Source: Deltaproteobacteria bacterium (GTDB lineage Bacteria > Desulfobacterota > Desulfobacteria > Desulfobacterales > JAFDCJ01). From it: a DNA stretch of 8,473 nt. The stretch spans positions 1 through 8,473 of the forward strand of contig JAJRVC010000637.1 of the NCBI GenBank assembly GCA_024277475.1, given 5' to 3'. The notes beneath the pieces are model-generated. The model had not been told where the DNA came from and did not search any database. It was given only the letters and a program-made list of their open reading frames with translations. Below are positions 2,510 through 8,473 of this stretch, piece after piece. Both the position numbers and the translations under genes were made by a program. Every line of letters begins with the position of its first letter. Positions within the stretch are counted from its first letter, which is position 1.

Positions 2510-3049
2510 TTAGCTCCTGCCACCAAGCAGATTATCTTTCACCCGATTTAATTGGACTTTATATCCGGAACGGATTTCCTGCGCTTCCCGGCGCCATTGC
2601 TCATCCGCCTCCAGGTTGGGAACGACGGCCGAACCTGAAATGAAATGTTTTGGGGCAAGATTTTCTTTGAGCCGGACCATCCTGTTACCGGCAGCTTTGT
2701 GGTAGGCATCCCTGTAACCATTAATAACTGCTTTGATTGTTGCTGAATCAATGCTACAGCATTCCTCAAGTATCTCCAGCAGGGATTGATTATCCCGATC
2801 CGGATCGAGACGGTTGATAATTTCATTAATCAGGATGTTATTATCTGACAGGTTGGAATTCTTTTGGAGTTTTTCATAGTCAATTTGAAACTGTTTGTTG
2901 GGCAATATCCCGTCCTGATATTTCTGCAGCATGCCTTTGATGCGCTTTTCAATTTTTTTCTGCATCTGTTCCTGCTTTTCCTCAGAGCTTAGCGTGAGGT
3001 GCCTGGTTTTTTCCAGAACAAGATCCAGTGTGCTTTTTATTTCCCCCAT
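2510..3049 (-). CDS. Unrecognised helical protein
   Basis: The 179-residue protein has no family I can name with confidence. It lacks a signal peptide and membrane segments and is therefore probably cytoplasmic. Residues 1-65 are rich in K, E and Q with a heptad-like pattern and probably form a long amphipathic helix or coiled coil. The middle (70-120) is also predicted helical and contains an adjacent cysteine pair (C97, C98). The most distinctive segment is HFISGSAVVPN (135-145) ahead of another charged helix containing W152, and it looks like a conserved functional patch. The start is well supported by AAGGG about 9 bases upstream of the ATG. It is oriented like the CULT and ClC genes but is separated from them by 378 non-coding bases, so it is probably transcribed separately. 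Confidence 0.75.
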   Translation of the reverse strand: MGEIKSTLDLVLEKTRHLTLSSEEKQEQMQKKIEKRIKGMLQKYQDGILPNKQFQIDYEKLQKNSNLSDNNILINEIINRLDPDRDNQSLLEILEECCSIDSATIKAVINGYRDAYHKAAGNRMVRLKENLAPKHFISGSAVVPNLEADEQWRREAQEIRSGYKVQLNRVKDNLLGGRS

Positions 3050-3295
3050 TGGAAATCACCCTTTCCGTAATAGTTCAGCCACTCAAACACAATTCTCTTG
3101 CGACTTGCAGAACCTATGAAAAAAAGCGAGTATCGAATCATGAATACCCGTCTGCCATGCATAGTGCGTTGGGTTAGCGTAAATATTGAGTTATGAATAA
3201 AATTGTTATATTTGCCTCGCACCAGTTCCAAGGCATTAATGTATTCCGGCTATTATAGATAAAAAGACTGAGCAAAACGAAACCATCCTTCGAAA

Positions 3296-3330
3296 TTCTG
3301 CGGTTCGTTATTCTGTGGTTCTGCGGTTTG
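3296..3330. repeat. Degenerate tandem repeat
   Basis: TTCTGCGGTT at 3296-3305 recurs as TTCTGTGGTT at 3311-3320 and again in part as CTGCGGTTTG. This is simple intergenic repeat material similar in style to the repeats after pntB. Confidence 0.5.
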
Positions 3331-3394
3331 CTGTTTTAGCCAGCTCATCAAAGCAGCCAGCGGCGGTGCTGACACCTGACACCCCCAATCTTTT

Positions 3395-3406
3395 ACAACA
3401 TGTTGT
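3395..3406. repeat. Perfect 12-base palindrome
   Basis: ACAACATGTTGT is an exact palindrome located 22 bases past the CULT stop codon in its direction of transcription. It has no loop and no T-run downstream on the - strand, so it is a poor terminator. A dimeric regulator site is possible but unsupported. Confidence 0.4.
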
Positions 3407-3427
3407 CAGACAGAACCTGATAAGGGC

Positions 3428-4045
3428 CTATCCGGGGTCGATCAGCCGATCCAGTATCAGTCCATAAAAGATATTGTCTCCCCCCAGACTGAACATCCAG
3501 CCTAAATGAGTCAGGCACAGGGTGCAGAAACAGACTCGCCAGCTATATCCTGCAAACCAGCTGAAGTCATCTGAGGCGGCTCCGGCATATCCGCATCCTT
3601 TTACACTTCTGAAACATCCAATTTCAAAAACAACACCATGGGGATTGGCAAAAGTGTGCCGGTGTAATCCCTGCATTGCAATACGTTCGGCCGGCTTAGT
3701 GATCGCCTGATGGCACTGGCGGCAAAGTATATACTCCTCTTCTTCATCCTCTTCTTCAGGGGACTGGTCCTCGGCTTGCCTTTCAAGCGTTGTTGTGTCG
3801 CCTTCTTCCTTCGTCCTGTCTGCGGGAATGCGAAAATAGCAGGCACAATCCTGCGAGGCTGAAGCCATCGTTAAGGCTTCATGGCTATGATAGTGAAGTT
3901 TTTGCCGGAAGACTTTTAGCCGATTGCTTTCACTATCCTGAAATGATTGTGAATTTATTTCTTCATGAACCCCAAGAATCGGATTGTTTCGCTGTTTACT
4001 ATCTGTGTTTCGTTGTATCAATCTGCGCCCCAATCTCAAAGGCAT
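3428..4045 (-). CDS. Cereblon-like CULT-domain protein
   Basis: The C-terminal half (about 105-203) is a CULT domain, the beta-tent zinc domain that forms the thalidomide/cyclic-imide pocket of human cereblon. The zinc ligands are C108/C111 and C174/C177. The aromatic cage is W163, W169 and W183, with spacing +6 and +20, identical to human W380, W386 and W400. The second zinc pair also falls at the human offset (+11, +14). F185 matches human F402, Y167 matches Y384, and NPHG (134-137) matches the human N351-G354 block. F161 stands where human cereblon has H378. There is no LON domain and no DDB1-binding region, as expected for a bacterial homologue. Residues 1-104 are hydrophilic, without a signal peptide, and end in an acidic run (97-104). 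The start is uncertain: ATG 4045 has no Shine-Dalgarno sequence but lies 13 bases after the ClC stop, and M60 (ATG at 3868) is an alternative. The physiological ligand is not known from sequence. Confidence 0.9.
   Translation of the reverse strand: MPLRLGRRLIQRNTDSKQRNNPILGVHEEINSQSFQDSESNRLKVFRQKLHYHSHEALTMASASQDCACYFRIPADRTKEEGDTTTLERQAEDQSPEEEDEEEEYILCRQCHQAITKPAERIAMQGLHRHTFANPHGVVFEIGCFRSVKGCGYAGAASDDFSWFAGYSWRVCFCTLCLTHLGWMFSLGGDNIFYGLILDRLIDPG
3735..3758 (-). repeat. In-frame 12-base tandem duplication in the acidic linker
   Basis: The 12-mer TCCTCTTCTTCA occurs twice head to tail on the + strand. Read on the - strand it encodes the EEEDEEEE linker (residues 97-104) just before the CULT domain. 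Because the unit is a multiple of three, copy-number change would alter only the linker length. Confidence 0.75.
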
Positions 4046-4058
4046 TGAATTTTATGGA

Positions 4059-5819
4059 TTAATTTTTAAACAGTGATTTTTTAAGTACGGCTTTCTCATA
4101 GGCCCCGATAACATCCCGCCGGGTGATGATGCCGACTAACTGCGAGGGATCGTCGGGTGAAACCACCGGTAGTGTAGAGAAATCATTCCGACTGATTTTT
4201 TCAAGCGCAGTGTACAGATTATCGATCGAGGATACGGTGACAACGTCAGAGGATGCCAGGTCCTTGGCAACTACGATGAATTTTAAATCCTCATCAAATA
4301 TAGCTTCACTATAATCGTTAAAAGATAGAATACCGGCCAGTTTATTCTCGGAATCGAGTACCGGAAAACTGTTGTATTTGCTTTTGGAAATTTTATCGGA
4401 CATTCTACCCAGGGACCAATCCTCGGACACGGTTTCCGCATGGGGACTCATCACATCCTTGACGTGCATCGATTTTAAAACATTGACCTCTTTTCCTTCT
4501 CTGATGTCAACACCCCTCCTGGCCAGCTTTAGTGTATAAATTGACTCTTTCATCAACTGGCCACTGGCAATCGTTGCAATTATGCAGGAAAACATGAGCG
4601 GAAGGATAATTTCGTAACTGCCCGTCATCTCAAAGAGGATTAAGATGGCCGTCAGGGGTCCATGAGTGGTGGCGCTGACAACCGCCCCCATGCCGACGAT
4701 ACTGTATGCACCGGGAGATGCCGTCACGTTCGGAAACAGATGATGTACCGTTATCCCAAAAAAACCGCCGGCCATCACGCCCAGGTACAGCGATGGGGCG
4801 AAAATGCCTCCCGATCCGCCCGAACCGATGGTAATGGACGTCGCCAGCAATTTGGCCACCACCAAAAGCAGCATAAGCCACCAGGCAAACTGCTGCCCCA
4901 GCGCCAGGTCCATGGCGCCATAGCCGACCCCCATAATTTGAGGAATAAACAGACCGCTGACTCCCAGGATCAATCCCCCAATAATCGGCTTTAAATATTC
5001 GGGAAATTTTAGACTATCGAACAAATCTTCAAGACGGTAAAGGGTTTTGGTAAATGAAACGCCCAAGGCGGCACAAAAAAGGCCGAGTATCAGGTAAATG
5101 GGAAATTCCCAGGCGCTGACCAATTGATAAGCGGGAACAAGAAATGCCGGCGTATCCCCTAAAAAAGCTCGTGAAACGGCGGTGGCCATCACGGAAGAGA
5201 TCACAATCGGACTGAAGGTGGCCAGTCCGAAATCTCCCAGTACAACCTCCAGGGCAAACATGGAACCGGCGATAGGCGCATTGAAGGTGGCGGCAATACC
5301 GGCGGCGGCTCCGCATCCTACCAGCGCCCGCATTCGATCCCCCGATACATTCAATGCCTGACCGATGGTGGATCCGATGGCGGAACCGATTTGAACAATC
5401 GGGCCTTCCCGGCCAACGGATCCGCCGGTACCTATACTGATAGCGGAGGCTATGGTTTTAACAAAAACAACCCTTTTCCTGATGACACCGCCCTTCAGAG
5501 CGACAGCCTCCATAACTTCGGGCACTCCGTGACCTTTGGCCTCTCTTGCGAAAAAATACACAAGTGGTCCCACCAGAAGCCCGCCGGCCGCCGGAATACC
5601 GACTTTATAGCTCCAGGGAATAGCCTTTACCACCTCGAGCAATTCACTGGGAGATCCGTAGGCAATGGCCTGGAAAAAATTTATGAGATAGCGGAATCCG
5701 ACGGCACCCAGCCCCGCCGCCAGGCCCACAATAACCCCCAGAATGGCCATTACTGTGTGCTCGTTGGTTTTTAGCTGACCCAGTTTCAATAATTTTGCTA
5801 AAGAGGATTTTTGATTCAT
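4059..5819 (-). CDS. ClC-family chloride channel/transporter with C-terminal CBS pair
   Basis: The 586-residue protein has a ClC membrane core (about 20-435) and two CBS domains (about 452-510 and 518-575), which usually bind adenine nucleotides and control gating. The selectivity and gating motifs are GHGVPEV (96-102, in place of GSGIPE), GREGP (136-140) with the gating glutamate E138, GSGGSGGIFAP (332-342), and Y428 at the position of the inner-gate tyrosine. At the place of the inner proton glutamate (E. coli ClC E203) the sequence reads FALEV, giving V192, as in animal ClC channels. The protein may therefore be a channel or proton-uncoupled carrier rather than a standard Cl-/H+ exchanger. 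GREGP argues against the fluoride-exporting subgroup. The start has AAAGG 11 bases upstream. A strong promoter lies at 5917-5944, and the CULT gene follows by 13 bases, which suggests one transcript. Confidence 0.93.
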   Translation of the reverse strand: MNQKSSLAKLLKLGQLKTNEHTVMAILGVIVGLAAGLGAVGFRYLINFFQAIAYGSPSELLEVVKAIPWSYKVGIPAAGGLLVGPLVYFFAREAKGHGVPEVMEAVALKGGVIRKRVVFVKTIASAISIGTGGSVGREGPIVQIGSAIGSTIGQALNVSGDRMRALVGCGAAAGIAATFNAPIAGSMFALEVVLGDFGLATFSPIVISSVMATAVSRAFLGDTPAFLVPAYQLVSAWEFPIYLILGLFCAALGVSFTKTLYRLEDLFDSLKFPEYLKPIIGGLILGVSGLFIPQIMGVGYGAMDLALGQQFAWWLMLLLVVAKLLATSITIGSGGSGGIFAPSLYLGVMAGGFFGITVHHLFPNVTASPGAYSIVGMGAVVSATTHGPLTAILILFEMTGSYEIILPLMFSCIIATIASGQLMKESIYTLKLARRGVDIREGKEVNVLKSMHVKDVMSPHAETVSEDWSLGRMSDKISKSKYNSFPVLDSENKLAGILSFNDYSEAIFDEDLKFIVVAKDLASSDVVTVSSIDNLYTALEKISRNDFSTLPVVSPDDPSQLVGIITRRDVIGAYEKAVLKKSLFKN

Positions 5820-8212: not shown

Positions 8213-8473
8213 CGGGTTAACTAAAAAAAAATGAACGTCGAACATTGAACATTGAACGTCCAACGTCGAATAATGTATTCTGCCCGTCGAGAGCCTCAAG
8301 GTCCAACGATCAATTTAAAAAAGACAGAGCACAGTGATTCAATTCTTCAAAATTTTTCGGTTCGCTTGTTTTAAAATAGATAAAGCGTAGCGTCATCAAT
8401 ATTCGAAGTTCGACGTTGGGCGTTCGATGTTCGACGTTCAATCAATTCACTGTTCCGGCCAGGCGGTGTTTCA
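8151..8473. other. Right-end non-coding region
   Basis: No gene of useful length is supported after the stop at 8150. The region contains the doubtful 20-residue ORF, a 10-base palindrome TCTGATCAGA (8170-8179), and the inverted-repeat element at 8232-8440. The last 30 bases show nothing identifiable. Confidence 0.5.
8232..8440. repeat. Inverted-repeat element of GAACGTCGAAC-like units
   Basis: The left arm (8232-8273) and right arm (8399-8440) are inverted copies. TGAACGTCGAACAT (8232-8245) is exactly complementary to 8427-8440, and CCAACGTCGAA (8260-8270) to 8409-8419. Inside the left arm the unit GAACATT is repeated in tandem (GAACATTGAACATTGAAC). The central 125 bases are AT-rich and have no coding content. 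It resembles a MITE-like or REP-like dispersed intergenic element without a transposase. Confidence 0.6.

Follow-up and report, generated by a model that had tools for sequence, protein, structure and literature searches.

The CULT family, its aromatic cage, a bacterial branch drawn "mainly from delta-proteobacteria" and the open question of its ligand were described in 2015 (PMC4287342), and a bacterial CULT protein and the ligand question are likewise covered in PMC4449219. Among the bacterial systems already described, the closest is MsCI4 (PDB 4v2y and others), the cereblon isoform 4 of Magnetospirillum gryphiswaldense, and its ligands include thalidomide and uridine (PMC4449219). Its human counterpart is the thalidomide-binding domain of cereblon, the substrate receptor of CRL4-CRBN. 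We analysed an 8,473-nucleotide stretch of a Deltaproteobacteria bacterium (contig JAJRVC010000637.1, hereafter the window) that carries a 205-codon open reading frame (ORF) at 3428-4045 on the minus strand; the plus-strand frame displayed there contains stops. An earlier note on this DNA, which does not name the strand, took the ORF for a bacterial CULT protein whose cage is intact, and stated that bacterial members exist and that their natural role is unsettled, two points already published in 2015 (PMC4287342). What is new is another member of an already described family; the pocket chemistry is not new.

Family membership and predicted fold

Sequence searches and the predicted fold bear out the assignment to CULT. 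In phmmer searches the protein matched MsCI4 over residues 106-203 of the 205-residue ORF (E 3.4e-23) and cereblon chains at E values of 1.3e-12 to 1.1e-9, and a profile built here from 128 sequences matched MsCI4 at 4.3e-35 and cereblon chains at 1.1e-21 to 1.5e-18. The curated libraries make no call, with the Pfam Yippee-Mis18 family (PF03226) at 14.8 bits, below its curated cut-off of 26.6, and no match at E 0.1 in an NCBIfam scan of the protein; for this reason membership was judged with PDB sequences and our own profile. The relatives that share the beta-tent fold and were compared here are Yippee, Mis18, MsrB and the RIG-I-like C-terminal domain, and profile matches to yippee-like 5 (E 0.018), MsrB (E 0.043) and DHX58 (E 0.54) were non-significant. 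Among these relatives the three-tryptophan cage is a feature of CULT, in agreement with PMC4287342.

The AlphaFold2 model has a beta-tent fold and superposes on MsCI4 at the level of the fold, as seen in structure matches. A CULT profile search and a structural overlay were the checks that the earlier note had proposed, and both came out in favor of its reading, the first with our profile while Pfam and NCBIfam stayed silent, and the second for the fold only. PDB 9nr3, titled as cereblon-DDB1 with GLUL-cN, was also among the fold matches of the model, and two MsCI4-like relatives are listed at NCBI as "cereblon family protein". A Pfam scan of the whole ORF, taken to E 1, found neither a LON domain nor any further family, so that the protein is essentially a CULT domain alone. 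It thus differs from human cereblon in having no LON match, and also in having Phe in place of His378. Such bacteria are not known to possess a ubiquitin/CRL4 system. We consider it virtually certain that the ORF codes for a bacterial cereblon (CULT) protein of one domain, with a beta-tent pinned by zinc and a cage of three tryptophans.

Distribution and conservation of the cage

A CULT match was found in 186 of the 291 sampled genomes from the class of L002, a Desulfosarcina relative, with one match in 181 of these genomes and two in five (counted by eye). Matches were also present in 7/8 genomes of the close group and in 39 of 395 genomes drawn across the phylum, some of them from that class. 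Three relatives found by name came from Desulfobacterales, Desulfosarcina and deltaproteobacterial metagenome-assembled genomes. No mobile-element copy was found: searches of 72,556 plasmid records (E 1e-5) and 50,697 phage records (E 0.01) returned no CULT match.

Conservation was assessed in 102 loci, which comprise the window, six close-relative loci and 95 of the 186 matching class genomes (by source, the window, L001-L003, L007-L010, 14 short class loci and 80 further regions), and in 20 divergent loci from the 39 matching genomes of the phylum draw, mostly those with the weaker matches. Residue numbers are those of the 205-residue ORF unless given as residues of 146. All of the residues named in the earlier note (W163, W169, W183, F185, Y167, N134-P-H-G137 and both CxxC pairs) are present in this frame. 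We take the positions of N134, Y167 and F185 to be those of N351, Y384 and F402 in human cereblon. The first zinc CxxC pair (C108-C111; 3713..3724, minus strand, as are all features of the protein) and the second (C174-C177; 3515..3526) occur in every one of the 102 loci, as do W163 and W169 in the cage segment FSWFAGYSW (F161 to W169; 3539..3565) and W183, which lies two residues from the cage-base F185 (3491..3499). Position 185 is Phe in 90 loci and Tyr in 12. At the hairpin tip NPHG (N134-G137; 3635..3646) the Asn, Pro and Gly are again without exception, and His136 is found in 61. Position 167 is more variable (Tyr 57, Phe 34, His 10, Cys 1), and position 160, the human Glu377 site, is Glu in 90 loci, Asp in 11, including the window (D160), and Gln in one. 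The three cage tryptophans and the Trp/CxxC/Trp pattern are kept in 20/20 divergent loci; one divergent CULT protein (L158, 3827-4339) keeps the tryptophan cage and is missing the NP of the hairpin tip. The identity, the fold and the invariance of the cage residues are the parts established by this analysis.

In MsCI4, W79, W85 and W99 correspond to human W380, W386 and W400, and Phe77 to His378; human Glu377 and His353 are also named in the same source (PMC8900816). The earlier note had described the spacing as exactly that of human cereblon; compared with MsCI4, it is the same except for a gap of one residue that follows the cage. The note also singled out the replacement of His378 by F161. 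The Phe is indeed there, but it is the bacterial norm rather than a special feature, as position 161 is Phe in 95 loci, Trp in four and Tyr in three, and MsCI4 has Phe77. The glutarimide hydrogen-bonds to the backbone of Phe77 (human His378) and Trp79 (PMC8900816), and therefore the change from His to Phe leaves this ligand contact in place. Other positions do differ between the two bacterial proteins: the cage base is F185 here and Tyr101 in MsCI4 (PMC8900816), the hairpin tip is NPHG rather than NPAG, and Cys151 and Cys172 have no counterpart in MsCI4.

Three further residues are conserved though they lie outside both the zinc site and the cage. His130 and Cys144 are found in all 102 loci and Cys151 in 98. 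Such residues could serve an enzyme of redox or methionine-sulfoxide type that arose from the beta-tent fold, and MsrB is a fold relative (PMC4287342) with the weak profile match given above. However, Cys144 is kept in only 10/20 divergent loci and none of the six MsCI4-type proteins retrieved has Cys151; the universal feature is the tryptophan cage rather than these cysteines, with His130, in 20/20 divergent loci, the residue that does persist. We therefore regard an enzyme of this type as highly improbable.

Ligands of the cage

Titles of PDB entries among the structure matches include complexes with thalidomide and with deoxyuridine. Because of its homology to MsCI4, the protein very probably binds imide- or uracil-type (glutarimide/uracil) rings, and the three-tryptophan cage would hold an imide-type ring by its edge, by way of hydrogen bonds to the backbone. 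The earlier note had proposed a small cyclic imide, a pyrimidine-like ring or an imide-ended peptide as ligand and the cytoplasm as the site of binding; the cytoplasm is the presumed location. Which ring is the natural one is a separate matter. MsCI4 binds uridine in the same way as thalidomide, and does not bind thymidine or cytidine (PMC4449219), and it has been co-crystallized with deoxyuridine (4v31), which would suit a sensor that takes free uracil or uridine into its cage and signals the state of pyrimidines or of uracil damage to a partner. The genomic neighborhood argues against such a sensor: no pyrimidine-metabolism gene is prominent among the recurrent neighbors (20 representatives annotated), and the one cytidylate-kinase-like family near CULT is encoded on the other strand, at 10 loci that belong to a single lineage. 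We judge a pyrimidine sensor to be unlikely, at roughly the same level as a reader of some other ring- or cation-ended ligand, such as a modified side chain or a metabolite, for which the imide drugs would be accidental ligands. Aromatic cages bind many types of ligand (PMC4287342), and in a distorted form the MsCI4 cage also took up dimethyl sulfoxide (PMC4449219).

Gene start

The earlier note extended the gene to 4045, and here the start was corrected. A homologue search found 863 proteins, of which 120 were listed, and 94 of those listed are 142-143 amino acids long. In the alignment, the first Met of the homologues falls at or beside Met60 of the ORF, with a few rows having longer N-termini. 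When the DNA was aligned with that of L001 and L002, the ATG at 3868 and the end of the upstream CLC gene were conserved, about 100 of the 177 bases in 3869-4045 were unique to the window (gaps counted by eye), and L002 had a stop in the in-frame upstream sequence. Given these homologue lengths and starts, the conserved ATG, the absent upstream bases and the stop in L002, translation most likely begins at nucleotide 3868 to give a predicted protein of 146 amino acids. The CULT gene would then span 3428..3868 on the minus strand including the stop codon, an extent with which the PDB and fold matches also agree, and the 59-codon upstream extension of the frame (3869..4045, minus strand), more than half of whose DNA is absent from L001 and L002, is probably not translated.

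The N-terminal tail and its motif

Residues 1-45 of 146 (3734..3868, minus strand) form an N-terminal tail that is predicted to be disordered and is acidic in its second half. In both AlphaFold2 models the predicted local distance difference test (pLDDT) score is below 50 for residues 1-9 and 15-41/42; residues 10-14, inside the tail motif, are outside those segments. This motif, YFRIPAD (residues 11-17 of 146; 3818..3838, minus strand), fits a pattern of an aromatic residue or Leu, Arg, any residue and Pro that occurs in 119 of the 120 close homologues listed. In an alignment of the window with 109 homologues, which leaves out 11 of the 120 listed, Arg72 is present in 110/110 sequences and Pro74 in 109/110, and most flanking columns vary; Glu88 (106), Pro96 (109) and a run of Glu before the domain are conserved too. 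Adding 16 further loci, chosen partly for alignable tails, gave Arg in 125/126 and Pro in 123/126. Across the 102 loci the motif is looser, with Arg in 64, Lys in 24 and a gap in eight at the Arg column, and Pro in 66 and a gap in 11 at the Pro column, and it is altered or missing in many divergent members. The pattern is found in 70 of these loci against a mean of 23 and a maximum of 36 in 500 shuffles, and in 22/33 sequences below 60% identity, for which 2000 shuffles gave 7.7 on average and 18 at most; the pattern was chosen after the tails had been inspected, and both comparisons are therefore descriptive only.

None of six MsCI4-type tails has the Arg-x-Pro motif. We met no mention of a Phe/Leu-Arg-x-Pro tail motif in the CULT literature searched, whose coverage was partial, so that this is no proof of novelty. 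Human cereblon has a conserved N-terminal motif that passes next to its thalidomide site (PMC4287342), and by analogy another reading is that the tail may act as an intramolecular lid, an arrangement not seen in our models. Docking of the tail onto its own CULT domain finds no support, as both models leave most of the tail at pLDDT <50. The acidic linker tolerates changes in length: in the window it contains a perfect 12-nt tandem duplication (3735..3758, minus strand), and the four residues gained in this way are missing from the 22 other sequences aligned.

Genomic surroundings

The window begins with the end of PntB, a CobB-like sirtuin and a metallo-beta-lactamase-fold hydrolase, all on the plus strand, followed on the minus strand by a 179-residue protein and CULT. 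Upstream of CULT are a CLC chloride channel with CBS domains (minus strand), an FmdB-type zinc ribbon and two frames of no family (plus strand). The CLC channel (4059..5819, identified by Pfam) is directly upstream of CULT and is a lineage-specific neighbor, found within 1.5 kb of CULT in 9/102 loci. The 179-residue protein (2510..3049, minus strand) lies downstream, belongs to no known family, has no Pfam match at E 1, and is likewise lineage-specific, within 1.5 kb of CULT in 12/102 loci; the CLC-CULT-179-residue order is kept in close relatives only. This protein carries a conserved N-terminal signature like EIKSTLDLV.EKT. Its family occurs in 47/291 class genomes, where CULT is present in 37/47 versus 149/244 of the other genomes, a modest excess counted by eye. 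It was rejected as a general partner, as by coordinates it adjoins CULT in 7/47 genomes only.

No neighbor family is general across the 102 loci, and a general operon partner was rejected as well. The commonest nearby family was the histidine-kinase superfamily with 15 members, some of them two per locus, and the next families occurred in 12, 11 and 10 loci, each lineage-specific. Other neighbors of this kind include a CysZ/EI24 membrane protein, asparagine synthase, RmuC, the cytidylate-kinase-like protein, a spore-photoproduct-lyase-like protein, an ADP-ribosylglycohydrolase and others. By crude open-frame gene calling, 49 of the 100 loci with both neighbors called had no same-strand neighbor within 150 nt. 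Ten of the 12 non-window CULT frames longer than 190 amino acids were scanned for fusion partners, and no other Pfam family was found at E 0.1. No promoter-like sites were found in 3200-4200, where there were two terminator-like sites versus 0.9 expected, and an Rfam scan of the window gave no match. A short TTCGACG-type tandem repeat of 5.4 copies was seen in the non-coding end of the window (8402-8439). Genomic context does not reveal CULT function.

Proposed function

An invariant cage, a single gene copy and a wide spread without a fixed operon favor a ligand that is small and general. Cyclic imides at C-termini are recognized by human cereblon (PMC12117711, PMC13001092). The natural ligand in bacteria could similarly be a cyclic imide, either aspartimide or glutarimide, that arises at the C-terminal end of proteins after cleavage or with age. 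Human cereblon reads this mark of damage as a degron, and its bacterial relative would then recognize it without ubiquitin. Since such a damage product is made by any cell, we judge a protein-borne cyclic imide to be somewhat more likely than free uridine. As an identification of the natural ligand we advance the protein-borne imide tentatively, at slightly under even chances, and the same tentative standing applies to the whole chain from CULT identity up to the imide.

Several points weigh against this proposal. The pocket is a prediction from sequence and fold, as is its ligand binding, and uridine fits the same pocket. No general neighbor among the 102 loci ties CULT to proteolysis or damage repair. 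A CULT match is missing from 105/291 class genomes; either the job of CULT is dispensable or these genomes are incomplete, so that absences may be gaps. A search for the PF01135 methyltransferase matched 291/291 genomes, with or without CULT, although some best matches were weak (1.9e-4 in G096, for example), and as this does not discriminate between genomes, co-occurrence with the methyltransferase was set aside as an uninformative test of the cyclic-imide ligand.

The conserved motif in a disordered, acidic tail invites a further step from the cyclic-imide ligand. SspB and ClpS are adaptors that deliver substrates to AAA+ proteases, and the CULT protein might work like them, with the Arg-x-Pro motif in its predicted-disordered tail as the point of comparison. 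The cage would capture cyclic-imide C-termini, and Phe/Leu-Arg-x-Pro on its flexible acidic tether would dock onto a partner, for example an AAA+ protease or a repair enzyme, that destroys or repairs the captured protein. We offer this adaptor model as a long shot.

Bacteria that lack ubiquitin offer a clean setting in which to ask what the thalidomide pocket does in nature, a question that still stands. Many genomes of one bacterial class carry the cage, nearly all of them in a single copy, and it does not vary among the loci examined. To this the present protein adds a corrected start of the gene and, in its N-terminal motif, a handle for a partner search. If the adaptor model is true, reading of damage by cereblon would be older than its link to ubiquitin, and the bacterial CULT proteins of this class would be ubiquitin-free counterparts of cereblon.
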